Shown here: piece by piece, positions 32,597 through 63,463 of the stretch
How positions within the stretch are numbered: position 1 is the first letter of the stretch
Layout of the letters: the number at the start of each line of letters is the position of its first letter
NCBI RefSeq assembly: GCF_003671495.1
Contig: NZ_RCHN01000015.1
Location: 1 to 64,000, forward strand
DNA length: 64,000 bases
Origin: Ketobacter sp.
GTDB taxonomy: Bacteria > Pseudomonadota > Gammaproteobacteria > Pseudomonadales > Ketobacteraceae
Reading direction: 5' to 3'
Translations under genes and position numbers: made by a program
The notes under the pieces: model-generated
What the model saw: only the letters and a program-made list of their open reading frames with translations
What the model was told of the DNA's origin: nothing
Database searches by the model: none

Positions 32597-34633
32597 ATGT
32601 GGACATTTCGACTCACGCTGCGCCCGGTGCGCGGCGCACTGCTGATGTTGTTAATCACCCCCGTTGCCCGGCTGCAGGGGGCAGAGCTGGACCTGATGCT
32701 GGATCGGGTCGTGGTGACCGGCACCCGCACTGAACAGATGATGGTGGATTCTCCGGTGCGCACGGAAGTGATCGACCGCCAGGACATTGAGCGTCAACAC
32801 GCCCGCAATCTGCAGGAAGCCCTGCAGGTGTTGCCGGGGGCCCTGCTCAACAAAATCCACGGCAAAACCGGCTACGAAGTCTGGCTGCAGGGTATCGACA
32901 GCAACCGGGTACTGGTGCTGATAGACGGCGAGCCGGTCTCCGCCAGCACCGGTTCCTCGGTGGACCTGTCCCAGATCGGCAGCGTCAACATTGAACGCAT
33001 TGAAGTGGTCAAGGGTGCCACCTCAGCCCTGTACGGCAGCAACGCCATGGGCGGTGTCATCAACATCATCACTCGCCAATCCGATCAGCCTCTGAGTTAT
33101 GCCCTGCGCGGCGACCTGGGCAGCTACGGGGATCAGAACATCAACGGCGATCCCTCCAGCCATGCCCAGCGCAGCGCCGCCGGTTATCTGGCAGCCCGGC
33201 ACGACCTGTGGTACGGCAACCTGAATTTCGACGGCGTGGACAGCGACGGCTTCCAGCCCTACCCCTCCAGCTGGGATCAGCTGGGCCCCACCAGTCAGAA
33301 AGGCACCGTTCGGGGCAAACTGGGATTCACCCCAAGCCAGGGCCAGGACCTGTTCCTCGCCGCCGAGCTGTACGACGAGGATACGGAATACCGCTATACC
33401 GAACCCAACCCCGGCAATCCGGATTACCGCACCAAGCGGGAACAGGCCACCCGCACCACCTACCGCGCGGGCGGCACCTGGCAGGGGCAGGCGTTCGGGG
33501 AGCTGAGTATCAAGCTGTTTTCGGAAACCTTCGAAGACACCACCGAGCAGGACAGCGCCGCCACTGCATTCCTGGAACAACAGCGCGAGGCGGAGCTGGA
33601 AACCAACAAGCTGATGTCCCAGTGGACGCTGAACTTAGGCCACAACCATCGCCTTACCAGCGGGCTCGACTATGCTGAAGAATCCCTCAGCCAGTCACGC
33701 CTGAAGCGCAGCAGCGCCACCGAGGTCGAGATTGATTCCGAACTGGCTGGCCAGCAACCGCAACGGGATAACCTGGAGCTGTTCCTGCAGGATGAAATCT
33801 TCATCGGTGAACGCCTGCGGGTATTGCCCGGCGTACGTTACCAGTCCGACAGCGACTTTGGTGACCACGTCACCCCCAAGATCAACGGCAGCTATGACCT
33901 GGGTGCCCTAAACTCGGATCACACCAACATGTTGCGGGTCGGCATCGGCCAGGGTTACCGGGTTCCCAATCTGAAAGAACGCTACTATCTGTTTGATCAT
34001 TCCGAGCACGGTTATGTGGTCAACGGCAATCCGGAACTGCAGCCGGAATCCTCCGACAGTGTGCAACTGGGTTGGGTCTACGCCACGCCCAACCTGTTCC
34101 AGTTTGAGATCAATTTCTACTACAACAAACTCACCGACCTGATCGAAACCGGGTTGGTGGAGCCGGCGTCGGCGGACAATGACTGGATCACCCAATTTGC
34201 CTACGTGAATGTGGCGGAAGCGGAGACCCGGGGCGGCGAATTCAGTACCCGCATCACCCCCACGGCCAACACCCGCTTCAATCTGGCCTACACCTATCTG
34301 GAAGCCAAGGACCTCACCACCGGCAACGATCTTGGCAAGCGCCCCCGGCATCAGGTGAAGGGCGGCATCGACTACAACCCATGGTCACCCCTCACCCTGA
34401 GCCTGTTGGGCCAGTGGCAAAGCGATGCCTGGTATGACCTGGAGAACCAGCACAAATCTCCCGCCTGGAGTCGGTTCGATTTCAAGCTGAACTACCAAAT
34501 CACCCGCCAGCTGAAACTGTATGGCGGCGTCGACAACCTCACCGACACCCAGCGGGATTTCACCAACAGCTTTGATCTGCGTCCGGATGAAGGGCGTTTT
34601 ATGTATCTGGGCTTACAACTTGGCAATGACTGA
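32597..34633 (+). CDS. TonB-dependent haem receptor, HmuR-like
   Basis: A 678-residue outer-membrane receptor with a signal peptide, a TonB box region (DRVVVTGTRTEQ) and a plug domain (VLVLIDGEPVSA, RIEVVKGATSALYGSNAMGGVINIITR). The barrel contains YRVPNLKERYYLFDHSEHGYVVNGNP, which matches the FRAP-x-His-NPNL-type signature of haem receptors, including the conserved His. It is the first gene of a haem operon with an HmuY-like lipoprotein and HmuSTUV genes behind it, which supports haem as substrate. Two Fur-like boxes precede it. The ATG at 32597 has a weak ribosome site. Confidence 0.88.
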   Translation: MWTFRLTLRPVRGALLMLLITPVARLQGAELDLMLDRVVVTGTRTEQMMVDSPVRTEVIDRQDIERQHARNLQEALQVLPGALLNKIHGKTGYEVWLQGIDSNRVLVLIDGEPVSASTGSSVDLSQIGSVNIERIEVVKGATSALYGSNAMGGVINIITRQSDQPLSYALRGDLGSYGDQNINGDPSSHAQRSAAGYLAARHDLWYGNLNFDGVDSDGFQPYPSSWDQLGPTSQKGTVRGKLGFTPSQGQDLFLAAELYDEDTEYRYTEPNPGNPDYRTKREQATRTTYRAGGTWQGQAFGELSIKLFSETFEDTTEQDSAATAFLEQQREAELETNKLMSQWTLNLGHNHRLTSGLDYAEESLSQSRLKRSSATEVEIDSELAGQQPQRDNLELFLQDEIFIGERLRVLPGVRYQSDSDFGDHVTPKINGSYDLGALNSDHTNMLRVGIGQGYRVPNLKERYYLFDHSEHGYVVNGNPELQPESSDSVQLGWVYATPNLFQFEINFYYNKLTDLIETGLVEPASADNDWITQFAYVNVAEAETRGGEFSTRITPTANTRFNLAYTYLEAKDLTTGNDLGKRPRHQVKGGIDYNPWSPLTLSLLGQWQSDAWYDLENQHKSPAWSRFDFKLNYQITRQLKLYGGVDNLTDTQRDFTNSFDLRPDEGRFMYLGLQLGND

Positions 34634-34646
34634 CAGGAGCCATCAC

Positions 34647-35840
34647 ATGCACAGCGTTTTGCAACCCATTACCCGATATTGTTCCATTCCCCTACTCTGT
34701 GCCGGGCTGCTTGGCCTGGGCGGTTGCGGCGGCAGTTCCAGCGGTTCTGACGATGGCGAAACCGAACGGGGCAGCAGCGACCCCGGGGCTCAATACGAAA
34801 GCGCCAGCCTGGACGCCAGCGTGGCAACCGCATACACCTATTTCAACCTGGACAGCGGCACCGTCATGGCGCTGACCGACTCCGAAGCAGCGGCCTCCAC
34901 CGACTGGCACATCGCGTTCAGCCGTTACAACGTAATCCTGAACGGGGGTGACTCCGGCCCCGGCAACGTCAGCGGTGCACTGGCAGCGGCACAAGACGAT
35001 TTCTACAGCTCAGCGACGGAGCCCAACGCCAGTGTGTTCCTGAATGCCACACCCGACAGCGAGCTGGAACATCTGCTGGCCAGCTATGATCTGGACGCGC
35101 TGAGTTTCGCCAGCGATGAAAAGGCCTCCGCCATTCAGGCCAGCGGCGCCCTGTCCGGCACCCAGCTGGATATGGGCTGGTACCTGTACGACTTCACCAC
35201 TCACGTCATCAGCCTCAACGCGGACAACTGGTGGCTGCTGCGTTCCGCCGAAGGCAACAGTTATGGGCTGTTTCATGCCACCGCCCTCAGTTACGACAGC
35301 GTCAACGGTCTGGACGTCACTTTCGAGTTTGATGTGCAGCCCTCGGGCACCGTGCAATTCACCAGCGGCGCCAGCTTCAGCGCCCATATCCCCAGTGCCG
35401 GCGGTGAGGCCTGTTTCGATTTTGACAGCGACAGCAGCGTCGACTGTGCCACCGCCAACTGGGATCTGAAACTGGAAATCGCCGGCCGTAACTGGAACCT
35501 GTGGACCCACAGCGGCATCACCGCCAACGGCAATGGTGGTGCATTTGGCCCCTTGGCCACCGCCGACGCGGATCTTTACACCTCGGCCACCACCTCCCCG
35601 GACGGGCAGGACATCCGCTTCCTGTACAGTGTTGATCGCAGCGCCGGCGTGTTCACCGACAACAGCTGGTATGAGTACAACCTGTCCGGTGCGCACAAGT
35701 TGTGGCCCAACTACCGCGTGTACATGATCGACACCGACAACACCTCCGACACCGCCCCAGTCTACGCCCTGCAGATCACCAGCTATTACTCCAACGCGGG
35801 CGCCAGCGGTTTCCCCAATATCCGATATCGACAGCAATGA
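34647..35840 (+). CDS. HmuY-like haem-binding lipoprotein
   Basis: A 397-residue exported lipoprotein with a signal peptide ending in the lipobox LGGC and a serine/glycine/acid-rich linker. It holds what looks like two copies of an HmuY-type beta domain. The first includes TYFNLDSGTVMALTD and DWHIAFSRYNVILNGGDSGPG; the second includes NWDLKLEIAGRNWNLWTHSGITANGNGGAFGP. HmuY proteins are surface haemophores that deliver haem to a HmuR receptor. The receptor lies 13 bp upstream, and cytoplasmic haem-handling genes follow. I cannot pick the haem ligands with confidence. It overlaps an ATG of the next gene. Confidence 0.75.
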   Translation: MHSVLQPITRYCSIPLLCAGLLGLGGCGGSSSGSDDGETERGSSDPGAQYESASLDASVATAYTYFNLDSGTVMALTDSEAAASTDWHIAFSRYNVILNGGDSGPGNVSGALAAAQDDFYSSATEPNASVFLNATPDSELEHLLASYDLDALSFASDEKASAIQASGALSGTQLDMGWYLYDFTTHVISLNADNWWLLRSAEGNSYGLFHATALSYDSVNGLDVTFEFDVQPSGTVQFTSGASFSAHIPSAGGEACFDFDSDSSVDCATANWDLKLEIAGRNWNLWTHSGITANGNGGAFGPLATADADLYTSATTSPDGQDIRFLYSVDRSAGVFTDNSWYEYNLSGAHKLWPNYRVYMIDTDNTSDTAPVYALQITSYYSNAGASGFPNIRYRQQ

Positions 35841-35851
35841 GGGAGCCAGCA

Positions 35852-36949
35852 ATGACCAACACACCCACTACGGTTGCCCAGGCAACCTTGCTCAACCCCG
35901 AACAACGTCAACAGCTCAAGGCCCGCTGGGCTAACCTGAAAGCGGAAGCCCCGACCCTGCGCATTCGCAACGCAGCGGAACGTCTGCAGGTGAGCGAAGC
36001 GGAATTACTGTGCACGGATCTGGGCAGGAACGTGTTCCGACTGAACCAGAGCTTGCCTTCCCTGCTGGTGGAGTTGGAGGCCGTGGGCCCGGTGCTGGCC
36101 CTGTCCCGCAATGAATTGATGGTGCATGAGAAACACGGCCAGTACACGGATTTCAAAATCCGTGGCAACGGGGCCATGGGCATTTGCCTGGGTGCCATTG
36201 ATCTGCGGGTGTTCCTGAACGAATGGCGTTACGGTTTTTCGGTCACCGAAGCCACCGATTCCGGCACCCGCCAGAGCCTGCAGTTCTTTGATCAGGAAGG
36301 CGCTGCCATCCACAAGATTTATAAGACCGCAGCCACCGACAGTGACGCCTGGGACCGGCTGATTGCACGCCACATCAGCAACAATCAGGACTACCAGGTC
36401 GCGCCGGAACCCTACCCCACACCGGTGTTTCCGAATTCAGGCAATACCACCACCCAACAGGTGTTGTCGAAGTGGGAAGCACTCAAGGATGTACACCAGT
36501 TCCACGGCATGCTGCAACAACTGGGTATCTCCCGCGTTGAAGCCTTACGCCTGGTGGGCCGCCATTACGCACAGCCGCTGCCAGTGGACAGCTTCGAGCA
36601 GGCGCTCTGTTACGGCGCTGAACATCAGGTTCCGCTGATGGTGTTCGTCAACAACCGGGGCATCGTGCAGATTCATACCGGTATTCTCAACAAACTGCTG
36701 CGCACCGGTCCCTGGTTCAACGTACTGGACCCGGATTTCAATCTGCACGCCAACACGGATGCCATCGACCAGGTGTGGTTGGTGCAGCGGCCCAGCGTGG
36801 ACGGCATCATCACCTCTCTGGAAGTCTATGATCGCAACGCCCACCTGGTGCTGACCCTGTTTGGTGAACGCAAGCCCGGCCATGGGGAACGGGACGATTG
36901 GCGGGCACTGACGGAACAGCTGCGCGCAGCACACACGGGAGCAGCATGA
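35852..36949 (+). CDS. hmuS: Haem-degrading/haem-trafficking protein HmuS
   Basis: A 365-residue cytoplasmic protein of the HemS/ChuS/HmuS family with the usual internal duplication: the first half includes SRNELMVHEKHGQYTDFKI and the second half VNNRGIVQIHTGILNKLL. Both halves share the pattern of an aromatic pocket and a possible haem-ligand His (HEKHG and HTG). It would accept haem after import and either store it or open the ring to release iron. The ATG at 35852 has GGGAG six bases upstream and is preferred over 35837, which overlaps the HmuY-like stop. Confidence 0.9.
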   Translation: MTNTPTTVAQATLLNPEQRQQLKARWANLKAEAPTLRIRNAAERLQVSEAELLCTDLGRNVFRLNQSLPSLLVELEAVGPVLALSRNELMVHEKHGQYTDFKIRGNGAMGICLGAIDLRVFLNEWRYGFSVTEATDSGTRQSLQFFDQEGAAIHKIYKTAATDSDAWDRLIARHISNNQDYQVAPEPYPTPVFPNSGNTTTQQVLSKWEALKDVHQFHGMLQQLGISRVEALRLVGRHYAQPLPVDSFEQALCYGAEHQVPLMVFVNNRGIVQIHTGILNKLLRTGPWFNVLDPDFNLHANTDAIDQVWLVQRPSVDGIITSLEVYDRNAHLVLTLFGERKPGHGERDDWRALTEQLRAAHTGAA

Positions 36950-37815
36950 TGAAGGTGTGGATGCTGCCACTTTGCCTGTGGGCACTCAGTGTTTTGAGCA
37001 CAGCGGGCTCAGTCTATGCAGGCGATGAGACCCGGGTCATCAGCATCGACGGTTCCATAACGGAAATTGTCTATGCACTGGGTGCAGCGGATCACCTGGT
37101 GGGTGTGGATACCACCAGCCGCTATCCCGCCGCGGCGCAAGCGTTGCCCAATGTGGGCTACATGCGCCAGTTGACGGCGGAAGGCATTCTTTCCCTGCAG
37201 CCCTCCCTGGTGATCACCACTGCCGAGGCGGGCCCGGTTGCCGTACTGGAACAACTGGACCAGGCCGGGCTCAGGGTTGAGACCATCACCACCGACAGCA
37301 GCATCGCGGGCGTCTATGCAAAGATCCGGCGGGTGGCCCAGTTGTTGGTAGTGCAAGAGCGAGGGGAAGAACTGATCGGTAGGTTGCAGAGCAACATTCA
37401 AACCCTGCAGGCGCAGCTGCACGACCGACGCGGGCAGGCACCGCCCAAGGTGATGTTCCTGTTGGCAGCGGGCAATCACGGCGTCATGCTGGCCGGCAAG
37501 AACACTCATGCTGACGCCATGATCCAGGTGATGGGCGGCGTCAACGTGGTCAGCGACTTCAACAGTTACAAGCCGCTGACACCGGAAGGCGGTCTGCAGA
37601 CTTTGCCGGACATCATCGTGGTGGCGGACACCGGCAGCGGCGGCCAGGCTCCCGCCAGCGAGCGCGTGCTGGAGCAATTCCAGTTGCTGCAACACACACC
37701 GGCGGCCCGTCAGAAACGGGTGATCACCGCCGACAGCATGTTGTTGCTGGGCTTCGGCCCCCGCATCGACCAGGCCATCGAAGCTATGGCACCGGCGTTT
37801 TATGTATCGCGTTAA
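36946..37815 (+). CDS. hmuT: Haem ABC transporter substrate-binding protein HmuT
   Basis: A 289-residue periplasmic binding protein with a cleavable signal peptide. The class III binding-protein fold is shown by RVISIDGSITEIVYALGAADHLVGVDTTSRYP at the start and AGNHGVMLAGKNTHADAMI in the second lobe. It presents haem to the HmuU-HmuV importer. The start ATG overlaps the hmuS stop (ATGA), and its own end overlaps hmuU by 14 bp, so the operon is translationally coupled. Confidence 0.92.
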   Translation: MMKVWMLPLCLWALSVLSTAGSVYAGDETRVISIDGSITEIVYALGAADHLVGVDTTSRYPAAAQALPNVGYMRQLTAEGILSLQPSLVITTAEAGPVAVLEQLDQAGLRVETITTDSSIAGVYAKIRRVAQLLVVQERGEELIGRLQSNIQTLQAQLHDRRGQAPPKVMFLLAAGNHGVMLAGKNTHADAMIQVMGGVNVVSDFNSYKPLTPEGGLQTLPDIIVVADTGSGGQAPASERVLEQFQLLQHTPAARQKRVITADSMLLLGFGPRIDQAIEAMAPAFYVSR

Positions 37816-38857
37816 TCCGATCGCCCTCTGGGGAATATTCGCCGTAGCACTGGTGGTGGCCTGTGCCTGGTCGCTGGTGACCGGCGCCCTGCACATTCCC
37901 AGCCGCGAGCTGGTTGCCGTGCTCAAGCAAGGGTTGGGATTCAGTGCCGCTGAACCGGTGCCCCTGCACCTGGAGATTACCCTGCTGCAGATCCGCCTGC
38001 CCCGCCTGGTGATGGCGCTGCTGGTGGGCGCGGCCCTGGCCCTCTCCGGGGCGGCTATTCAAGGCCTGTTCCGCAACCCACTGGCGGACCCGGGCCTGAT
38101 CGGGGTGTCCAGTGGTGCGGCGTTGGGCGCCGTGTCCATCATAGTTCTGGGCGACACCTTGTTCAGCAGTTGGGTCTGGTTGAGCGGGCGCTGGGCGCTG
38201 CCGATCGCAGCTTTCGTCGCCAGCCTGATCACCACTCTGGTGATTTACCGCATCGCCACCCGCAGCGGTTACACCCAGGTCGCCACCCTGTTGCTGGCCG
38301 GCATAGCCATCAACGCCATCGCCGGTGCCGCCACCGGTTTGCTCACCTTCATCGCCGACGACAGCGAGCTGCGCAGCATCACGTTCTGGTCCATGGGCAG
38401 CCTGACCCAATCCAGCTGGCAGGACGTGGCTGCCATGCTGCCGTTCATCCTGATACCGCTGTTGTTATTGCCGCTGTTTGCACCGGCCCTGAATGGATTC
38501 CTGATGGGGGAAGCGGTGGCCGAACACCTGGGCTTTCCCATTCGCTGGGTGAAGCGCTGTATCATTTTGCTCACCGCCATGGCCGTGGGCGCCGCCGTTG
38601 CGTTCTCCGGCGTGATCGGTTTTCTGGGATTGGTGGTGCCCCATCTGCTGCGGCTGGTGATCGGCCCGGATCATCGTCTGCTGCTGCCGGCGTCTGCACT
38701 CTGTGGCGCCTTGCTGTTGACCGTGGCGGACATGTTTGCCCGCACCGTGGTGGCGCCGGCGGAACTGCCCATCGGTTTGATCATGGCCATCATTGGCGGT
38801 CCATTCTTTTTGGCCCTGTTGCTGAGCCCGGCACTGAAACCCGGAGGGGTCGCCTGA
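37802..38857 (+). CDS. hmuU: Haem ABC transporter permease HmuU
   Basis: A 351-residue FecCD-family permease with about ten transmembrane helices. Conserved features include RLPRLVMALLVGAALALSGAAIQGLFRNPLADPGLIGVS near the N-terminus, FWSMGSL in the middle and GVIGFLGLVVPHLLRLVIGPDHR near the C-terminus, which contains the coupling region to the ATPase. It starts inside the end of hmuT and shares one base with hmuV's start. Confidence 0.93.
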   Translation: MYRVNPIALWGIFAVALVVACAWSLVTGALHIPSRELVAVLKQGLGFSAAEPVPLHLEITLLQIRLPRLVMALLVGAALALSGAAIQGLFRNPLADPGLIGVSSGAALGAVSIIVLGDTLFSSWVWLSGRWALPIAAFVASLITTLVIYRIATRSGYTQVATLLLAGIAINAIAGAATGLLTFIADDSELRSITFWSMGSLTQSSWQDVAAMLPFILIPLLLLPLFAPALNGFLMGEAVAEHLGFPIRWVKRCIILLTAMAVGAAVAFSGVIGFLGLVVPHLLRLVIGPDHRLLLPASALCGALLLTVADMFARTVVAPAELPIGLIMAIIGGPFFLALLLSPALKPGGVA

Positions 38858-39738
38858 TGCTGCGCACGGAAAACCTGCGAATTTCCCTCACCAACAAACG
38901 CATCACCGATAAACGAACCACCACGCCCCATCTGGTGGAGAACGTCAGCCTGGCATTCAACCCCGGTGAGCTCACGTTGATTCTGGGGGCCAATGGCGCG
39001 GGCAAAAGTACCTTACTGAACGCGCTGGCCGGCACCCGGGTGCGCCACCCCGCCTTGCAGCAACAGGGGCGCGTTACCCTGGATAACCAGGACCTGGCAC
39101 AGTTCCCCGCCAAAGCGCTGGCCCGGCGACGGGCCGTCATGCCGCAACAGGTGCAACTGGATTTTCCCTTCAAGGTCCACGAGGTGATCGCCATGGGCCG
39201 TTCCCCTTACGGCATGGATAGCCAGAGCCAACGCATCACTGACCAGGCCATGGCGCTGCTGGAAGTCGACCACCTTCAGCACCGCGACTACCCCAGCCTG
39301 TCCGGCGGCGAACAACAACGGGTGCAACTGGCCCGGGTACTGGCGCAGATCTGGCCTCACGGGGACAAGCCACGACCGCAGGCGGATCATGAAGCCGGGC
39401 ACACCAAACGCCATCGCGTGCTACTGCTGGACGAGTGTACCTCCGCGTTGGACCCGGCCCACCAGCACCAGGTGTTGGACATCATCAAGCAATTCACCAC
39501 CCCCGATGTCATCAGTTGCGCGGTGTTGCACGATCTGCCCCTGGCGGCCCGTTACGGTGATCGTGTGATCCTGATGAAACAGGGCAGGGTCATTGCCGAC
39601 GGTACGCCCCGTCAGGTCCTTACCGCTGACAATCTGGCCGCCACGTACGACCTGCGTACCCGGATACTGCAACACCAGGAGGTGGATCACCCGATCATCG
39701 TCGGGCTTGGGCGAGCAACCCATCGCGGGCTTCCGTAA
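38857..39738 (+). CDS. hmuV: Haem ABC transporter ATP-binding protein HmuV
   Basis: A 293-residue ATPase. Walker A is GANGAGKSTLL, the signature SLSGGEQQRVQLARVLAQ, Walker B LLLDECTSALD and the switch His in AVLHDLPLA. Two oddities: the Walker B follow-on reads DECTSALD where most family members have DEPTSALD, and a charged insert of about 24 residues (WPHGDKPRPQADHEAGHTK) lies between the signature and Walker B. The ATG at 38857 overlaps the hmuU stop by one base. Its 3' end overlaps the convergent J-domain gene by 44 bp. Confidence 0.92.
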   Translation: MLRTENLRISLTNKRITDKRTTTPHLVENVSLAFNPGELTLILGANGAGKSTLLNALAGTRVRHPALQQQGRVTLDNQDLAQFPAKALARRRAVMPQQVQLDFPFKVHEVIAMGRSPYGMDSQSQRITDQAMALLEVDHLQHRDYPSLSGGEQQRVQLARVLAQIWPHGDKPRPQADHEAGHTKRHRVLLLDECTSALDPAHQHQVLDIIKQFTTPDVISCAVLHDLPLAARYGDRVILMKQGRVIADGTPRQVLTADNLAATYDLRTRILQHQEVDHPIIVGLGRATHRGLP

Positions 39739-52616: not shown

Positions 52617-54614
52617 TCAATCCTGCGACGAACCGGACTCGGCCTTCTCCACCGCATCCTCAATCACCGCCCGCGCTTCATCGCAATGATCTGCTGCTGC
52701 CGTGGCGCGATCCATGATTCCGGTATAGAGGAACGACATGCCCCCGGTGAGAACGGCGGCGCCCCCGCTGAGCAGAACGCCTTTTCGATTCAATCCGACG
52801 CTGGGCCGCCCCAAGGTGCCACCCAGTTTCACAAACGGCGTCACGAACATATCGGCGCTCACCCCCACGCCGGTGCGGGGCTTGGTATTGAATTCGATGT
52901 TGAGGGCTTCACTGTTGAGATCGATGCTGCCGCCACCCACCACCATCAATTGATCGCTTTGCAACAGAAAACCTTTGATCTCGCCAAACCCGGAGGTAAA
53001 TCGCAGCGCAAACATGCTGCACTCCCAATGGGTAAATTTCTGCTTGTGCATGAACGGATTCAACGCCGTGATCAACTGCGACAGAATGTCGCCGGAGAAG
53101 CGGCGGACCAGATCATTGTTCACCTTGCCGGCTCCCTGATTCAGGGCAATACCGCCGTCCAGCTTGCCCGCCAGAGCGCGGATGGTGTTGCCGGAGCTCT
53201 GTACCAGAATGTTGAGGTTGGTAATGGGCACCTCCTCTTTCGGAACGCCGGGACCGGTCAGCATCCCCAAACGAATATCACGAACCTTGCTGTCCACAGC
53301 AATTTTGGCCTCACTGCCGCTGGCATCAAGCTCGACCGTGCTGGTGAAGCTCCCCCCTAAATAGCCGGAGAACTGATTGGTGAGACTCACTTTCCCGTGG
53401 CGGGCGTCTGCATTCAGTTTGAATTGCTCGAGTTCCGTATTACGTAGCATCAGCCGCTCGACATCCGCATCCAGTTTCAGGTTTAACGACCGCAACAGAT
53501 CCATGGGCAGCGGCGTATCGTCGAACACAAAAGGCGAGATGGAAGCAGGCTTGGTTGCGGATTCTGATTCAGGTTCATCGTTCAACGGCATAAAGGGAGT
53601 CAGGTCCAACACCTTTGACCTGGCCTGAGCGTCAAACCGCAGCGGTTCCCCCAGGTTAATCTGCACCGAGCCCCGCACATCACTGTTCCCCAGCGTTGCC
53701 TGGTAAAGGCCCACCGAAATCCGGTCTTCGCCCAGCGTGATGTGGCCTTTCAATGCCACCGCCTGATCCGGCAGCCCCTCTACCTGCAACAAGCTGCCCA
53801 GCTTGGCCAGCGAGTTCACCGCCAGATCAACATCGAAACCCTGTGCCGGAAAATCAATCCGCGCCTTCAGTGCTACCGGTTCAGCGGGGTTCTGTGCTTC
53901 TGGCTCGGCCTCAATCCGGGCTTGAACGCTGTGCTGTGCTACCTCAGCGGTCACCTGCAGGGGCAGATCCCCATACCGCAGTTTGCCTTGCAGCCGGGTC
54001 GTTTGCTCCCCCGTCGCCGCAATGGATTCCAACACCATCACCTGATCCTGGCTTTGCGGTTGCCGATAGGTAATCCGCACGCCCTGAATGTCCGCGGCAT
54101 GCACCACCACGGGTATACTCATCCCGCCAGTCTCTTGGTTTAATGGGGGCTCCGGATCGCTTTGCATAACCCCGTCGCTTTGCATAACCCCGTCGCTTTG
54201 CATAACCCCGTCGCTTTGCATAAAGGGGAACGACCAATTCATCTGCTGCTGGGGCCCGGTTTCCAGTAACAGCGTAGCCTGCTGCAGTTCGATGCGATTG
54301 ATCACGATGGGATGCGCACGCCAGGCCAACAGCCCCATGCGCACATAGGCTCTGTCCGCCTGCAGCATAACGGGTTCAGACCCCCACTCCGCATTAGCAA
54401 GGCTGACGTTGGTAAGTTCCAGGGTCGGCACGGGGAGCAGATGTACCGACAATGCGCCATCGATTCGAAACTCGCGGCCGGTTAAATCACTGATCGTGGA
54501 TTCAACCTTCGGCTTCAGAAAACCAAAATCCACGAACCAGAGCACCAACACCAACAGGACACACACCGACAGCAGGGTTGCAGCGGTGATTTTGAACATT
54601 CTGACTGCCAGCAT
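52617..54614 (-). CDS. AsmA-family protein
   Basis: A 665-residue envelope protein of the AsmA family, which in other bacteria spans the periplasm and takes part in phospholipid transport to the outer membrane. One N-terminal membrane helix (TAATLLSVCVLLVLVLWFVDF) is followed by the AsmA start motif (FLKPKVESTISDLTGREFRIDGALSV, LLPVPTLELTNVSLANAEWG) and a long beta-rich body. The C-terminal third contains LNPFMHKQKFTHWECSMFALRFTSGFGEI and the family ending NIEFNTKPRTGVGVSADMFVTPFVKLGGTLGRPS. Residues about 131-152 are a short tandem repeat of MQSDGV. It lies 9 bp after the DUF2058 gene in the same direction. Confidence 0.88.
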   Translation of the reverse strand: MLAVRMFKITAATLLSVCVLLVLVLWFVDFGFLKPKVESTISDLTGREFRIDGALSVHLLPVPTLELTNVSLANAEWGSEPVMLQADRAYVRMGLLAWRAHPIVINRIELQQATLLLETGPQQQMNWSFPFMQSDGVMQSDGVMQSDGVMQSDPEPPLNQETGGMSIPVVVHAADIQGVRITYRQPQSQDQVMVLESIAATGEQTTRLQGKLRYGDLPLQVTAEVAQHSVQARIEAEPEAQNPAEPVALKARIDFPAQGFDVDLAVNSLAKLGSLLQVEGLPDQAVALKGHITLGEDRISVGLYQATLGNSDVRGSVQINLGEPLRFDAQARSKVLDLTPFMPLNDEPESESATKPASISPFVFDDTPLPMDLLRSLNLKLDADVERLMLRNTELEQFKLNADARHGKVSLTNQFSGYLGGSFTSTVELDASGSEAKIAVDSKVRDIRLGMLTGPGVPKEEVPITNLNILVQSSGNTIRALAGKLDGGIALNQGAGKVNNDLVRRFSGDILSQLITALNPFMHKQKFTHWECSMFALRFTSGFGEIKGFLLQSDQLMVVGGGSIDLNSEALNIEFNTKPRTGVGVSADMFVTPFVKLGGTLGRPSVGLNRKGVLLSGGAAVLTGGMSFLYTGIMDRATAAADHCDEARAVIEDAVEKAESGSSQD
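54156..54227. repeat. 18-bp minisatellite inside the AsmA gene
   Basis: Three near-perfect 18-bp units ([A/G]TCGCTTTGCATAACCCC on the plus strand, starting 54156, 54174 and 54192) and a fourth partial unit from 54210. They encode MQSDGV repeats in the AsmA protein. The unit is a multiple of three, so copy-number change would alter length without a frameshift. Confidence 0.9.
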
Positions 54615-56942: not shown

Positions 56943-59900
56943 ATGGACTTCAAGCCTTTCACCACCGCCGTGGTGTTCTCGACTATTGCTTTGGTATCCA
57001 CTCCCGCCTTTGCCGCCGCACTGCAGAACGGTGCCGCGCCCACCGGTACGCTGTCCTCCCCATTGGACGTGGACAGTTGGACCTTCTCCGCCAACGCCGG
57101 GCAAAGCATTCATCTGCAGGTTGCCGAACTCAGTGGCACTGACCTGCAGCCGCTGTTGCGCTTGTACGACCCCGGCCACGTGGAGGTGACGTCGAACTGG
57201 GGCCAGGATTCCACCGACCTCAAATATGTGGCCAGCCAAACCGGAACCTATACCGTAGAGGTGCTGGACGCCACCTCCACCCCGGATGGCACCGGCACCT
57301 ATCAAATGTTCCTTGCCCTTTCCAGCGGCAGCTTCCAGATCCCCGCCGGTGATGAAGGTGGCAGCCTGATCAGCGGCAACAAGCACAGCGGAACCATTTC
57401 ACTGGCAGATCTGGATATCTGGACATTTTCCGTGGACGCCATGGAAACCGTGTTTCTGCAAATCGGCGAAACCGCCACAAGCTCCAGTGGCTTTCAGCCG
57501 GAGATCACCGTGTACGACCCCTTCGGCAGGGAAGTGGGCAGTAATTGGGGCAATACCTCCGCCGACCTGACGTTCCAAAGCCCTCTGGCCGGCCAATACA
57601 CGGTGGTGGTGAAAGAGTCCACGGCGGATGTGGTCGACAGCGGCTCCTATGATTTGTACTTTACCAGCGCCGGGCAATCGTACATTACGCCCCCCGGTGA
57701 TCACGGTGGTCCCCTGACCAATGGAGGTGTGCATTCCGGCTACATTGATCTGGCAGACATCGACGCCTGGAGTTTCAGCGCAGAAGCCAATGATACGGTC
57801 CTAATTCAGGTGGCGGACATCAACGGCAATGCCGGTTTTCAACCCCAGGTTTTCCTGTTTGATGCCTTTGGCAACGAAGTGCAAACCAACTGGGGCAACA
57901 GCGCCGCGGACCTGAAGGTGCAGTTAACCAAAGGCGGCCAATACACGGTGATCGTCAAAGAATCCACTGCCGACGTACCGGACACTGGTGCCTATCAACT
58001 GTATTTCACCAACACCAGTGAAAACCTGGTGGTCCCGGCGGGAGACCAGGGTGGTGTGGTCACCAATGGCGGCGTCTACGATGGGGAGATCGAGCTGGCC
58101 GATATAGATGCCTGGACCTTCACAGGGGAAAAGGGCAACACCGTGGTCATTCAGGTGGGGGAAGTGGCGGATCACACCAGCGGATTCCAGCCGGAAGTCA
58201 GCCTTTACGATCCCCTGGGTAACCAGCTGGATCTCAACTGGGGCAACACAGCCGCTGACCTGACCGTGGCACTCCCCATGGCGGGCGAGTACACCATTGT
58301 GGTGAAAGAATCCTCCGTCGACGTGCCCGATTCCGGCACCTATAGACTCTACTTCAACAGCGTTACCGAGGCGTCACTGATGGTACCCACCGGCGACGAA
58401 GGTGGCGTGCTTGACAACGGCAGTGTTCATGAAGGGGACATTGATCTGGGCGACGTGGACGCCTGGACCTTCATCGGCGAAGTCTACCAAACGGTACACC
58501 TGCAGATCGCCGAAGTCACCGATGACACCAGCGGTTTCCAACCGGAGATCCGCCTGTACGACCCCATGGGCAACCTGGTCACCAGCAACTGGGGTAACGT
58601 CTCCGCGGACATCAGCACCACCCTGGAGCGCAATGGCCAGTACACGGTGATCGTCCGTGAATCCAGTGCCGATGTACCAGACACCGGCAGCTATAAACTC
58701 TACTTCCAGCAACTCGCCGAAAGTTTCACTGTTGCCGGCAATGATGACGGGGGCACCCTCTTCAGCGGTACGCCCCAGGCGGGCACCATTGAGCGGGCCG
58801 ATCTCGACGCCTGGACTTTCTATGTGGACGCAGAAGACCAGATCGACCTGACCCTGACGGAGCTGACCGATAACGGCGGCTTCTACCCGCAAATCACCCT
58901 CTATGATCCCCTGGGCCGACCGCTGGTCTCCGGCCAGGGCACTACGGGCGGCAGCATCAGCACACCGGCGATTCTGTCCGGCCTGTACACCGCCGTGGTG
59001 GCGGACGGTACTGGTGACGTCCCCAACAGCGGCACTTACGAGCTGGCCTATACCCGCACCAATGTGGCCTCTCCGGTACCCGCCGGTGCCAGCATCGCCA
59101 CCATCGACAACGGTGAGTTGATCTCCGGTACCTTCAACGGCTCCACCGACATCGACAAATACCAACTCAACGTGGTGGCCGGCGAAACGGTTTACCTGCG
59201 CTTGGGGGACACCAGCAACAGTTACCTCAACCCGCGGTTGCGCGTGTTCAGCAGCAGCGGTGCCATTCTGTGGTCTTCGGTAAGCAGCACCTGGACCGAG
59301 GCAGAATTCAAAGCCCCCGCCAATGATACCCTGACGGTCGCGGTCTCCAACGACTACACCACCACCGCCAGCTATGACTACCGGCTCACGGCAGCACTGG
59401 CTTCACAACCCATCAACACGGTAGCGGGTGACATCGGCGGAGTGATCAGCAGCGGTCAACTGATCAGTGGCACCCTGGCCGGGGGGGACGCCGATGTGTT
59501 CAACCTGACGGTCAGTGCCGGTGAGGCGGTCTATGTGCGCCTGGGTGACACCAGCAATTCTTATGTCAGCCCAAAATTGAGGGTCTATCGCAGCAATGGG
59601 GACATCCTGTGGTCCTCCTCAGCGTCGCAATGGACTGACGCCCTGTTCCACGCCCCCGCCTCCGAAACCCTCACCATCGTGGTCTCCAACCATTACGCCA
59701 TATCCAGTATTTATGACTACAAACTCAGTGCGGTGGTGGCGTCCCAAAGCGTCACCTCCAGCAGCGGGGATGAAGGTGGCCTGATCCACTCCGGTGAATT
59801 GATCAGTGGGTCCTTCGAAGGCGGCGATGCGGACGTGTTCAACCTGGCCGTCAGCGCCGGAGAAGCCGTCTACATTCGGGTGGGTGATACCAACAACTCA

Positions 59901-61223
59901 TACGTCAGTCCCCAGCTTATGGTGTTGGGCGCCAATGGCAACCTGCTGTGGGCATCGAGCGCCTCCCACTGGACCGAAGCACTGTTTGAAGCGCCCCATA
60001 CGGAAACCCTCACCATCGTGACGGCCAACGGTTACGCCATCTCATCGCCTTACGCCTACGAACTCACCGCAGTGGTGGCTTCACAAACTATTACCACCAG
60101 TGCGGGTGACGAGAGCGGCACCATCGTCAGCGGCGAAGAGGTTGCCGGGTTGTTTGCAGGTGGCGACGCAGATGTATTCAACCTGGCGGTGCAGGCCGGT
60201 GAGAGCGTATACGTGCGTGTGGGTGACACCAACAACAGCTATGCCAACCCGAGCCTGAGGATCTTCAGCAGCAGCGGACAACTGCTTTGGACCTCAAACC
60301 AGTCCCATTGGACAGAAGCGCTGCTGAAAGCACCTGCCACCGAAACCCTCACCATCGTGGCCTCAAACGGTTACGCTAACTCATCAGATGAGAGCTATCG
60401 TCTCACCGCCATGGCAGCCTCCCAGACCATCACCACCCTGGTGGGCGATGAGGGTGGCGACATCGACAGTGGGGCGCTGGTGAGTGGATATCTGTCCGGT
60501 GGCGATACTGACCTGTTCAGCCTGTCGGTGGTGGCCGGGGAACCGGTGTACCTGCGCTTCGGTGACACCAACAATTCCTACTTCAGTCCACAGCTGCGCA
60601 TTTTCAGCAGCAGCGGCGCGGTGCTCTGGTCTTCCGCTAACAGCCATTGGACTGAAGCGCTGTTCCAGGCGCCGGCTACTGAGAACATCCGCGTACTGGT
60701 TTCCAACGGATATCCGATTTCCTCTGAATACGAATATGAACTTACTGGCGTCGTCGCATCGCAGGCCGTGACCACGCTCGCCGGGGACGAAGGCGGCACC
60801 CTCACCAACGGCATGACCCTCTCGGGAAGTTTCGCCGGTGGTGATGCCGACGTCTACAAAGTCATCGTGCAGAACGGCGTACCGGTGCAGATCCATCTAG
60901 ATGACGGCGGCACCAGCTATACCACTCCGACCCTGTATATTATCAACAGCAACCGGGAACTGGTGGCCTATGGCAGCACCAACTCCTCCACCATTCTGGA
61001 CTGGGTGCCTACCCACAACGAAGTCGTGACGATCATCGTCGCCAACGCCTACCCATCCTCTGCAAACTACGGCTACAACCTCACCGGCACCGGCATCAGC
61101 CCCTTCACTCCACCGCTTTCCAGCGGGCCCGGTGAAGACGTGCCACTGCCCCTGTGGGCGCTACTGATGCTGGGCGGTGTGGTCACCTGGCTGTCGAAGC
61201 GATATGGTTCACACAATGCGTAA
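56943..61223 (+). CDS. Giant secreted protein of twelve tandem beta domains with sorting-like tail
   Basis: A 1426-residue protein. Residues 1-25 are a signal peptide (ending AFAAAL). From residue 42 there are twelve tandem domains resembling bacterial pre-peptidase C-terminal (PPC-like) domains. Domains 1-6 (42-735, about 116 residues each) begin D-[VLI]-D-x-W-[TS]-F and contain FQPE and NWGN. Domains 7-12 (736-1395, mostly 113 residues) begin DADVFNL and contain GDTNNSY, LW.S and SHWTEALF. The last 27 residues read PLPLWALLMLGG, a hydrophobic helix and SKRYGSHNA, a short motif-helix-basic end typical of exosortase substrates. No protease or enzyme domain is seen. The stop overlaps the exosortase start, so the pair is coupled. 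ATG 56943 is chosen over 56907 because the signal peptide begins there. Confidence 0.88.
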   Translation: MDFKPFTTAVVFSTIALVSTPAFAAALQNGAAPTGTLSSPLDVDSWTFSANAGQSIHLQVAELSGTDLQPLLRLYDPGHVEVTSNWGQDSTDLKYVASQTGTYTVEVLDATSTPDGTGTYQMFLALSSGSFQIPAGDEGGSLISGNKHSGTISLADLDIWTFSVDAMETVFLQIGETATSSSGFQPEITVYDPFGREVGSNWGNTSADLTFQSPLAGQYTVVVKESTADVVDSGSYDLYFTSAGQSYITPPGDHGGPLTNGGVHSGYIDLADIDAWSFSAEANDTVLIQVADINGNAGFQPQVFLFDAFGNEVQTNWGNSAADLKVQLTKGGQYTVIVKESTADVPDTGAYQLYFTNTSENLVVPAGDQGGVVTNGGVYDGEIELADIDAWTFTGEKGNTVVIQVGEVADHTSGFQPEVSLYDPLGNQLDLNWGNTAADLTVALPMAGEYTIVVKESSVDVPDSGTYRLYFNSVTEASLMVPTGDEGGVLDNGSVHEGDIDLGDVDAWTFIGEVYQTVHLQIAEVTDDTSGFQPEIRLYDPMGNLVTSNWGNVSADISTTLERNGQYTVIVRESSADVPDTGSYKLYFQQLAESFTVAGNDDGGTLFSGTPQAGTIERADLDAWTFYVDAEDQIDLTLTELTDNGGFYPQITLYDPLGRPLVSGQGTTGGSISTPAILSGLYTAVVADGTGDVPNSGTYELAYTRTNVASPVPAGASIATIDNGELISGTFNGSTDIDKYQLNVVAGETVYLRLGDTSNSYLNPRLRVFSSSGAILWSSVSSTWTEAEFKAPANDTLTVAVSNDYTTTASYDYRLTAALASQPINTVAGDIGGVISSGQLISGTLAGGDADVFNLTVSAGEAVYVRLGDTSNSYVSPKLRVYRSNGDILWSSSASQWTDALFHAPASETLTIVVSNHYAISSIYDYKLSAVVASQSVTSSSGDEGGLIHSGELISGSFEGGDADVFNLAVSAGEAVYIRVGDTNNSYVSPQLMVLGANGNLLWASSASHWTEALFEAPHTETLTIVTANGYAISSPYAYELTAVVASQTITTSAGDESGTIVSGEEVAGLFAGGDADVFNLAVQAGESVYVRVGDTNNSYANPSLRIFSSSGQLLWTSNQSHWTEALLKAPATETLTIVASNGYANSSDESYRLTAMAASQTITTLVGDEGGDIDSGALVSGYLSGGDTDLFSLSVVAGEPVYLRFGDTNNSYFSPQLRIFSSSGAVLWSSANSHWTEALFQAPATENIRVLVSNGYPISSEYEYELTGVVASQAVTTLAGDEGGTLTNGMTLSGSFAGGDADVYKVIVQNGVPVQIHLDDGGTSYTTPTLYIINSNRELVAYGSTNSSTILDWVPTHNEVVTIIVANAYPSSANYGYNLTGTGISPFTPPLSSGPGEDVPLPLWALLMLGGVVTWLSKRYGSHNA
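59148..60842. repeat. Second set of tandem domains (five full 339-bp units)
   Basis: Domains 7-11 of the giant protein are each exactly 113 codons with no length change, and share the string GDTNNSY and SHWTEALF in most copies. The uniform length and high similarity suggest recent tandem amplification, in contrast to the more diverged first six domains. Confidence 0.8.
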
Positions 61224-61755
61224 ACCACTCACCAAAGCCTGGCACCAACCGCCGTTTCCGGTGCTGTTCCTGCTGCTGGCGGTGGGGTTGATGGCAGGCT
61301 ACTACGCCCTGCCCCAAACCCTGATCGATCAGGTGATCGTGCGCTATTTTGCGGTGGTGCCCGGCGCCCACATTCTGGACTGGCTAACGCCCTCTTACAC
61401 GGTGACCAGTGAGAACACCCGCATTCTGTCACCCTTGGCCAACCTGAACGTACTGAAGGGTTGTGAAGGCACCGAGGTGCTGCTGATCCTGTACGCCGCG
61501 ATGATCGCCATGCGCCGCCCCTGGCGTGCCACCCTGATCGGATTGCTGGTGGGCAGCGCCGTGGTGTTTGTGCTGAACCAGTTCCGCATTGTCGCCCTGT
61601 ATTTTGTGGTGGCCTGGCAGCGTGACTGGTTTGAAGCCGTACACGGGTTTGCGGCCCCCATTCTGATTGTGGCGTTGTGCGGCATCGGATTCATGGGCTG
61701 GTTGCGGCTTACCGCGCCGACAACCGCGCCCGCACCCACGCCAGCGGAGGCGTAA
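61216..61755 (+). CDS. Short exosortase-family transpeptidase
   Basis: A 179-residue integral membrane protein with about five hydrophobic segments. The exosortase catalytic triad is complete: Cys83 in LKGCEGTEVLLILYAAM, Arg124 in LNQFRIVALYF and His143 in FEAVHGFAAPIL. The GC-x-G-x-E form of the Cys motif resembles the small exosortase H group; I assign the family with confidence but the subgroup only tentatively. It would cleave and transfer the C-terminal tail of the preceding protein. The ATG at 61216 lies inside the last codons of that gene, and its own stop is one base before the next gene. Confidence 0.88.
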   Translation: MRKPLTKAWHQPPFPVLFLLLAVGLMAGYYALPQTLIDQVIVRYFAVVPGAHILDWLTPSYTVTSENTRILSPLANLNVLKGCEGTEVLLILYAAMIAMRRPWRATLIGLLVGSAVVFVLNQFRIVALYFVVAWQRDWFEAVHGFAAPILIVALCGIGFMGWLRLTAPTTAPAPTPAEA

Positions 61756-61756
61756 C

Positions 61757-62374
61757 ATGCCCTGGCGCACGACCTTGCTTGGGCTGGGCTGGCTGTTGTC
61801 CGCTACCCTGTTGGGGGTTGTGCTGTTTCATTGGCGCACGGAGCTGGTGAGCCTGCTGACGCCCCTGCTGCACGGGGTGGCGGCCCTGGTGGAAACCCGC
61901 ATGGACGTGGCGGGCATGAATGTGTTGCAACGGGGCAGCGAACAACTGCTGGAGCTGCGCCTGGTGAGCCAACAACCCATTCAACTGTATGGGCGGGAAT
62001 TTCCGGGGATGGATGTCAGCGCCACCACACTGGTCACCCACGCCATGTTGCATTTTTTTATTTTCGGAATGGCGTTGATCAGCGGCCTGATGCTGGCGCT
62101 CCCCGACTGGAAACGCGGACTGGGCCTGCTGGGGCTGTTGGCCGGTGGGTTGCTATTGTCGTTAGTCCTGGATCTGCCCTTCACCTTGCTGGGCAGCATT
62201 GAAGGGTTGCTGCTGCAACACCTGGCTCCGGATCAATTGAACCACCACCCACTGGTGTTCTGGGAGCGTTTTATGACCCAGGGTGGACGAATGGTAACGG
62301 CATTGGCGCTAAGCCTGTTGTGCTTGAATCTGGCGGGTGTGCGTTGGCCCTGGCTGTCTCGGCCAACTGCATAA
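61757..62374 (+). CDS. Exosortase-associated membrane protein
   Basis: A 205-residue membrane protein with four main hydrophobic segments: TTLLGLGWLLSATLLGVVLF, a central LVTHAMLHFFIFGMALISGLML, GLLGLLAGGLLLSLVLDLPF and VTALALSLLCLNLAGV. Between the first and second lies a periplasmic loop of about 100 residues. It starts one base after the exosortase stop with AGCGGAGG as ribosome site. Position and topology match the accessory membrane protein found beside exosortase H-type enzymes, but I cannot confirm the family from sequence alone. Its 3' end overlaps the convergent regulator by 104 bp. Confidence 0.75.
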   Translation: MPWRTTLLGLGWLLSATLLGVVLFHWRTELVSLLTPLLHGVAALVETRMDVAGMNVLQRGSEQLLELRLVSQQPIQLYGREFPGMDVSATTLVTHAMLHFFIFGMALISGLMLALPDWKRGLGLLGLLAGGLLLSLVLDLPFTLLGSIEGLLLQHLAPDQLNHHPLVFWERFMTQGGRMVTALALSLLCLNLAGVRWPWLSRPTA

Positions 62375-63179
62375 AGTATTGCCTCGGGGTTTCCAACCAG
62401 GGGCTGTCATCCTCCGGCAGCCAGGGTAAGCCGCAGAACGCCAGCGCCTCCGATGGGCGGCAAACGCCTTCCAGGCAACGGTGCAGACGCCAGGTATCCA
62501 GATCCACATGCTCGGGGTTAAAACCGATTTTATTGTTGGACTGAACAATGCACTCGCTGCCCAGCATTTTCCGCAACCGATGTACGCTGGTATAAAACTT
62601 GTTGAGGGCCGCATCCCCATCGTCTGCTTCCCACAGGGCATCACAGATTTTGTTGACCGGCACCTGAACCCCGCCCAGCGCCACCATCAACTTGATCATG
62701 GACAGCAAACGATGGGGCGGCTTTTTCGGAAACACCCGTTCGGCTTCCCCCAGAAAGATCCGCAGGCCGCCAAAGCTTCGAATAAAAACAGAGGGGTGCG
62801 TATTGCGGCGCTGCTGAATCGCAGCCAGGCAGTCGTACAACCGCTCCAGATCCACCGGCTTGCTGAGAAAATAACTGATGCCCAGCTGCGCCAACCGGAA
62901 CGCCTCCTCGGCGCTGGTCTCTGCACTCATCACAATCACGTCAGACTGGTTCGGCAGCAGGGCTTTGAGCTCCGCCACCGTGCCGCCAGGAAAGCGGCAT
63001 TCCGCTACAACGCTGTCCGGCACTATGTCACACAAGTAAGCCTGTACCGCCGTCAGGGAGGAACAGGTTTCCACCCGGGGCGACAGCTCCCGCAGAAACG
63101 TCGTGAGATGTCGGCGCTGGCAGGATTCCTCCGCCACCACCAGAATGTCCTGCATCCTTACTCTGTTCCGGGCATCCAT
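62271..63179 (-). CDS. Response-regulator-like protein with degenerate receiver and winged helix
   Basis: A 302-residue regulator. The N-terminal receiver-like domain (about 10-122) reads DILVVAEES where active receivers have an acidic pair, and has Glu60 (VVAECRFPGG) at the phosphoacceptor position; Ser85 and Lys107 (FLSKPVD) are retained. Glu can mimic a phosphorylated Asp. A winged-helix domain of the OmpR/SARP type follows at about 140-215 (MIKLMVALGGVQVPVNKICDALW, LNKFYTSVHRLRKMLG), then a C-terminal tail. No histidine kinase is adjacent. The ATG at 63179 has AAGGA; convergent overlap with the exosortase partner suggests linked regulation. Confidence 0.8.
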   Translation of the reverse strand: MDARNRVRMQDILVVAEESCQRRHLTTFLRELSPRVETCSSLTAVQAYLCDIVPDSVVAECRFPGGTVAELKALLPNQSDVIVMSAETSAEEAFRLAQLGISYFLSKPVDLERLYDCLAAIQQRRNTHPSVFIRSFGGLRIFLGEAERVFPKKPPHRLLSMIKLMVALGGVQVPVNKICDALWEADDGDAALNKFYTSVHRLRKMLGSECIVQSNNKIGFNPEHVDLDTWRLHRCLEGVCRPSEALAFCGLPWLPEDDSPWLETPRQYFMQLAETARANAHPPDSSTTGLAPMPLPFVHPGS

Positions 63180-63463
63180 GCTGTTCCTTATCCTGACTTG
63201 CCAAACCAACCCATACAGTCCAATACAAAGCCAATCCGTCCTGGACCAGCCCATACTAACAGCGCCCAACATTCAATTAAGTAAATTTCAGAGGTTGTAC
63301 CTGTGTAAAAGTGCCCGCAGAAACGTGCATCCCACCCGCGTTATAACAAAGCTATTTGTAAGGCGCCTGCCGCTATAGTTCCCCTGCGCCTGCGATCATT
63401 CTGATCCGGGTGAATTAGCTTCACTACCCACAACACCCATTCGAGTGTGAAAAGGAGTTCAAC

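Follow-up and report, generated by a model that had tools for sequence, protein, structure and literature searches.

An XrtM-related exosortase with a conserved membrane partner and a giant repeat protein as its probable substrate in Ketobacter sp.

Described sorting systems related to the locus

The current view of exosortases (PMC11980579, PMC12188702, PMC10936215) is that they process tripartite tails at the C-terminus and that their substrates stay at the surface of the cell, perhaps through transpeptidation; the first of these papers also names an active-site cysteine. Well-known sorting systems can have at least 20 scattered substrates, and this is part of the reason why exosortase biochemistry is poorly known; on the other side, 'dedicated' sorting systems with one target are an established idea, exemplified by rhombosortase/GlyGly-CTERM, which in some genomes has a single target, mostly adjacent to it, and in others many (Haft et al., 2011, PMC3237569). 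The locus described here resembles that system in the pairing of one sorting enzyme with one detectable, adjacent target, while the enzyme and the motif are unrelated. A second precedent is XrtF with the exosortase F system-associated protein: in the account of PMC10936215, deletion of either XrtF or its adjacent partner in Flavobacterium johnsoniae gave the same colonization and biofilm defect. The present locus likewise combines an exosortase with an adjacent partner, but belongs to a different family and comes from a different group of organisms.

Closer in composition is the XrtH/XrtH_assoc/IPTL-CTERM system, in which a small exosortase likewise precedes a membrane partner of approximately 200 aa, and whose tail family (TIGR04174, PF18203) has the same IP...W motif followed by a helix and basic residues; however, the exosortase of our locus scores under the XrtH cut-off and neither its partner nor its tail is matched by the respective models (NF041730 for the partner). 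With the XrtD/VPLPA-CTERM system the locus has in common a tail starting with VPLP and the presence of an XrtD in the same genome, but XrtD is a long exosortase with a fused EpsI domain, the tryptophan of its tails stands elsewhere, and the present tail has no VPLPA match. A literature search on XrtM, XrtH, IPTL-CTERM and midcut-by-XrtH, in which subscription journals were thinly covered, found no paper on these families.

Gene layout, exosortase family and membrane partner

The window (the whole stretch of 64,000 nucleotides analyzed here, positions 1–64,000 of NZ_RCHN01000015.1, assembly GCF_003671495.1) belongs to contig 7 of a draft assembly (5,319,631 bases, 93.84% complete). On its forward strand, the ORF list contained a frame open from 56907, in which the ATG at 56943, preceded by GGGGGAT, starts a secreted giant protein of 1426 residues (56943..61223) with an apparent signal peptide MDFKPFTTAVVFSTIALVSTPAFA-A, called by eye and hydropathy. 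The TAA of this gene ends at 61223, giving an 8-bp overlap with the gene of a 179-aa exosortase (61216..61755, forward strand), whose start is placed at ATG 61216, with ATG 61204 as a possible alternative. The stop codon of this gene ends at 61755; one base on, the gene of a 205-aa membrane partner (61757..62374, forward strand) begins with an ATG preceded by GGAGG. These positions and the length of the giant agree with those in the initial annotation, which had described a secreted 1426-aa giant, an overlapping exosortase and a membrane partner one base later. The overlap and the spacing suggest that the three genes form an operon with translational coupling.

A response regulator gene on the reverse strand (62271–63272) converges on the partner gene with a 3' overlap of approximately 100 bp, and in relatives the same place is taken by a LuxR-type response regulator (G007, L013) or a hybrid histidine kinase (L004), genomes and loci being given here by G and L numbers. 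Elsewhere in the window, a haem or iron uptake cluster (32597–39738) includes a TonB-dependent receptor, an HmuY-domain protein, HemS/ChuX, an FecCD permease and an ABC ATPase, and a 665-aa ORF on the reverse strand (52617–54614) carries a short in-frame tandem repeat, VMQSDG, in four copies as counted by eye.

The exosortase exceeded the cut-offs of both PF09721 (34.0 vs 25.7) and TIGR04178 (48 vs 23 bits). Cys83, Arg124 and His143, which we take to be the catalytic residues, stood at the positions initially reported and were invariant in an alignment of the window exosortase with five relatives. Comparison with XrtH and other subgroup models, as proposed in the initial annotation, put XrtM (TIGR04300) first with 93.1 bits and XrtH second with 53.3 bits; both scores were under the family cut-offs (125 and 86, respectively), and the enzyme is therefore termed XrtM-related and not XrtM. 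A sequence search of solved structures gave no match at E ≤ 1 with either the exosortase or the partner.

When 33 exosortases were arranged in a tree with FastTree (a 99-aa fragment in L035 was left out and support was checked on the unrooted tree), the window exosortase fell into a clade of 18 members with support 0.99; every one of the 18 adjoins a relative of the membrane partner, including the three that exceed the XrtM cut-off (G126, G385 and G330). The enzyme is thus joined to XrtM by its best-scoring family and by this common clade, while it differs in its score and in its own sub-clade of six members (support 1.0). Half of the clade (9/18) was found independently of the partner: the window exosortase, five found via exosortase searches (L004, L005, L006 and the loci of G006 and G007) and three via the XrtM search (G364, G493 and G506). 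The remaining 15 tree exosortases, selected with the XrtM model at E ≤ 1e-8, had no partner of this kind at E ≤ 1 within the sequence read around them, which was limited by short contigs in some cases; a neighbor passing the XrtH_assoc model NF041730 was present at six of them.

The partner itself matched no NCBIfam family at E ≤ 10 and had a single chance match in Pfam (E 0.68); it is recognized by its conservation beside the related exosortases of the XrtM clade. Among 17 sequences the strongest conservation was found at P36, L144, G146 and in a GGR motif near the end, and the prediction has helices at the N-terminus, then a short stretch of beta structure (residues 53–92) and more helices. 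Its structure model is of low confidence (pLDDT 63) and gave no Foldseek match at E ≤ 0.001. A profile comparison with XrtH_assoc (hhalign) covered 137 columns with a probability of 35, which is suggestive of a common plan and is not evidence of homology. Relatives of the partner were sparse: 5 of 293 genomes of the order and 9 of 369 genomes of the class at E ≤ 1e-3, to which a wider profile added G364, G493 and G506, and, in a draw of 398 genomes from the phylum with at most seven candidates scored per genome, only the genome studied here at E ≤ 1e-5.

The giant repeat protein and its sorting tail

The giant protein has two hydrophobic segments, residues 9–27 and 1400–1418 (19-residue window, threshold 1.6), and is composed of 12 PPC-like beta-domain repeats of two sub-types, six of approximately 116 aa and six of approximately 113 aa. 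Eleven repeats were found directly with a motif anchor, while the fifth type-B repeat was located by spacing and aligns with the others. Pfam matched PPC (PF04151, 71 bits, in three stretches), and no enzyme domain was found in the protein; the net charge of its 1438-aa ORF is -119, and Cys is absent. A model of the type-B repeat, built on an alignment confined to the six copies in the giant itself, was a nine-strand beta domain (pLDDT 81) with the PPC domain of a collagenase as its best PDB match (E 1.6e-6), followed by ColG/ColH collagen-binding domains and subtilases. Because GOLD, PliG and other beta-sandwich domains matched at similar E-values, the structural match supports the fold, and supports the family only together with the Pfam result. 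The giant is likely a long binding or adhesive rod.

Tandem Repeats Finder detected no repeat at the DNA level in this gene, and blastp of the protein against itself returned the self match alone. No full-length homologue was present among 24 genomes, in which its relatives were limited to proteins sharing PPC repeats: one near the G006 module and one on a separate contig of G007, both of them PPC-GDSL lipase-TSP3 proteins with common repeats only, and a weak match in G462. Type IX secretion was considered on account of a match to the T9SS type A sorting model TIGR04183 above the cut-off (33.9 vs 23 bits) and was rejected since the match is internal, lying within a PPC-like repeat (window 58881–59015, residues 659–703 of the 1438-aa ORF); it might lead automatic annotation to misname the protein.

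The C-terminal tail GEDVPLPLWALLMLGGVVTWLSKRYGSHNA (61131..61220, forward strand) consists of a motif, a hydrophobic helix and basic residues and matched the tail profile at E 9.8e-11, the giant being one of the 12 training tails. Most members of this tail class follow the pattern [DE]-[IV]-P-x(1-2)-P-x-W, then A or G, a hydrophobic helix and usually basic residues; the exceptions among 17 aligned tails were two with Q before [IV]P, one with S for the second P and two with T after W. The form [VI]PLP[LA]W found in the giant also occurs in four proteins of G006 and G007, two of them GDSL-lipase relatives and two of approximately 273 aa. The window tail matched no NCBIfam family at E ≤ 10, including VPLPA (TIGR03370) and IPTL-CTERM (TIGR04174), whereas two tails beside XrtM-clade modules exceeded the IPTL-CTERM cut-off of 20.5 bits (L038, 24.4, and L036, 23.9 bits), three were just below it (G506, 20.2, L084, 19.5, and L082, 18.5 bits) and the others scored lower or not at all. 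The window tail is therefore placed in a divergent part of an IPTL-like continuum, and the proposal that it may define a little-described sorting class holds insofar as no NCBIfam family matches it, but it is one variant of a continuum to which IPTL-CTERM also belongs, and not a class of its own.

Signals of this kind may also stand inside proteins. In G555 an IPTLGEW signal is located within an RHS protein and reaches the cut-off of IPTL-CTERM PF18203 (20.8). At L041:9414-13985, an RHS-repeat protein of 1523 aa carries an internal IPTLGEW-type signal and its gene diverges from that of an XrtM-clade exosortase, an arrangement of the 'midcut' kind; the name of the NCBI family 'midcut-by-XrtH' suggests that internal sorting signals exist in other proteins too. 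RHS proteins with a transglutaminase-like domain adjoin the modules of L038 and L039.

Tail proteins and their distribution among genomes

The tail census, made with the profile of 12 tails in 20 genomes (13 with the partner and 7 relatives without it), produced 17 matches at E ≤ 1e-3, distributed over 11 of the 13 module-bearing and none of the seven partner-less genomes, the latter having no match below E 0.19. Eleven of the matches came from the training set and the other six (E 1.4e-6 to 2.1e-4) lay outside it, and the first match beyond the 17 in any of the 20 genomes had E 0.058. Three tails were present in G006, two each in G007, G012, G395 and G532, and one each in this genome (G000), G126, G462, G555, G602 and G610, while the module-bearing G330 and G385 had none at that threshold.

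In G000, a 93.84% complete draft, the giant was the only protein with a detectable tail: the next place of the profile had E 0.196, a VPLPLW-subtype profile applied to 15 genomes of the family gave no second tail either (its next place was at E 0.206), and of the three places matched by a DNA pattern the two other than the giant's were rejected, one after being read and one by its matched letters. The genome-wide search proposed in the initial annotation thus returned the giant alone at E ≤ 1e-3, and its word 'dedicated' would fit this genome as far as detectable tails go; it does not extend to the module at large, because five of the 13 module-bearing genomes searched have two or three tails. 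A single target is not a lasting trait of this enzyme type, and the tail proteins elsewhere are of unrelated kinds (subtilases, a GDSL lipase, a nuclease-phosphatase).

Among 369 genomes, 16 had tails, 25 had an XrtM-like exosortase (E ≤ 1e-8) and 13 had both (Fisher P 9e-15, a value that, like the following one, ignores relatedness among genomes); with the six training genomes removed, 7 of the 10 tail genomes among the remaining 363 had an XrtM-like exosortase (P 4e-8). The three of 16 tail genomes lacking such an exosortase at this threshold were G398 (85% complete), G514 (82% complete) and G599, and 12 of the 25 genomes with an XrtM-like match had no tail match. At the level of loci, a tail protein was found in the stretch read at 10 of 17 other module loci (L004, L006, L036–L041, L043 and L129) and not at the remaining seven (L005, L034, L035, L042, L044, L130 and L131), coverage at L130 and L131 being that of the nearest genes alone; G126 (L034) and G007 (L044) have tail proteins elsewhere in the genome.

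The same three-gene order, substrate, exosortase and partner on one strand, recurs at L038 (G462) and at L129 (G506), the latter with the tail VPLPPWSTALL; a look for this order in other genomes had been proposed in the initial annotation. The cargo varied from subtilases (L006, L036, L037 and, in G006, L043) to a nuclease-phosphatase (L004), an SdiA-regulated protein (L084), GDSL lipases and others, and none was an orthologue of the giant.

Four exosortases were found in the genome with PF09721: that of the window, one XrtD and two XrtE. The XrtD, of the VPLPA-CTERM type, is encoded on contig 46 in what by eye is an apparent polysaccharide locus; a 620-aa protein of this locus (L087:11982-13844) has a Gly-rich tail resembling GlyGly-CTERM by eye, with no NCBIfam match at E ≤ 1. 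The two XrtE are exosortase/protease fusions near contig starts (L088 and L089, contigs 21 and 33), and beside one of them is a 160-aa protein ending in VPEIDGAG..., with no NCBIfam match.

Proposed role of the module and its alternatives

The locus is probably best explained as an XrtM-related three-gene operon, in which the exosortase and its partner process the tail of the giant at or near DVPLPLW, with one detectable substrate in this genome. The scheme published for exosortases (tail processing, and XrtF acting with a partner) is taken over for this module: the giant would be exported by Sec, its C-terminal helix would halt in the inner membrane, and the exosortase, through Cys83/Arg124/His143 and with the partner as a putative second subunit, would cut or transfer the chain at or near DVPLPLW. 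The repeat region would then either become free or be attached at the cell surface, and polymers or other surfaces are conceivable ligands of its PPC domains there.

Since the giant tail starts with VPLP like the VPLPA tails, and the genome has an XrtD well identified by its model (542.7 bits, cut-off 400) along with two XrtE, the tail might be handled by another exosortase, above all XrtD, or be a mere membrane anchor, the adjacent pair serving other substrates; the absence of a detected tail in the module-bearing G330 and G385 would be in line with this. We consider it improbable, because the giant tail matched no VPLPA model and separated from VPLPA-like tails both ways in a leave-one-out scoring of ten proteins, for which set the E-values hold: with a profile of the other 16 tails, the giant scored 13.7 bits while four VPLPA/PEP-CTERM-like proteins did not exceed 0.4, and with a profile of those four, the giant scored -1.6 bits. 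Furthermore, the same genus includes G011, whose XrtD is 71% identical over 529 residues to that of this genome but which has neither the partner nor such a tail; the partner-less relatives had no comparable tail match; and the tails co-occur with XrtM-like exosortases, often adjacent to them. Taken together, the leave-one-out scores and G011 lean against XrtD as the enzyme of the giant. The reading of the locus as an XrtH system whose IPTL-CTERM tail has diverged, which XrtH as the second-best family and the two tails passing the IPTL-CTERM model (L038 and L036) would favor, is very improbable: the exosortase scored under the XrtH cut-off and was placed by the tree outside the XrtH group, and the partner had no NF041730 match and only the weak profile comparison with XrtH_assoc.

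Compatible with the preferred explanation in everything except 'one substrate' is the view that the pair has several substrates here too, missed on account of divergent tails or of a missing part of the assembly. It draws on the two or three tail proteins each in G006, G007 and G012 of the same family and on the incompleteness of the draft, but the profile that recovered six tails outside its training set found nothing better than E 0.196 as the second place in G000, and the subtype profile and the DNA pattern agreed on this; we regard it as possible, although unlikely.

Returning to the XrtM-related module acting on the giant, a broader reading can be offered tentatively: the enzymes of the XrtM clade may be two-subunit ones, whose small catalytic subunit would be active only with the partner, the beta-rich segment and the GGR of the latter selecting the IPTL-like tail or supplying the anchor. 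Such an enzyme would have been put to work repeatedly on unrelated cargo, gained and lost next to it, and this lineage would be down to one giant of binding-type domains.

This kind of module is already known, though little studied, and the form of exosortase, partner and tail found here is a variant, well conserved, with its chief value as a compact test system: in a compact operon with one enzyme, a conserved partner and one detectable substrate, the cleavage, the anchoring and the role of the partner would become directly testable.
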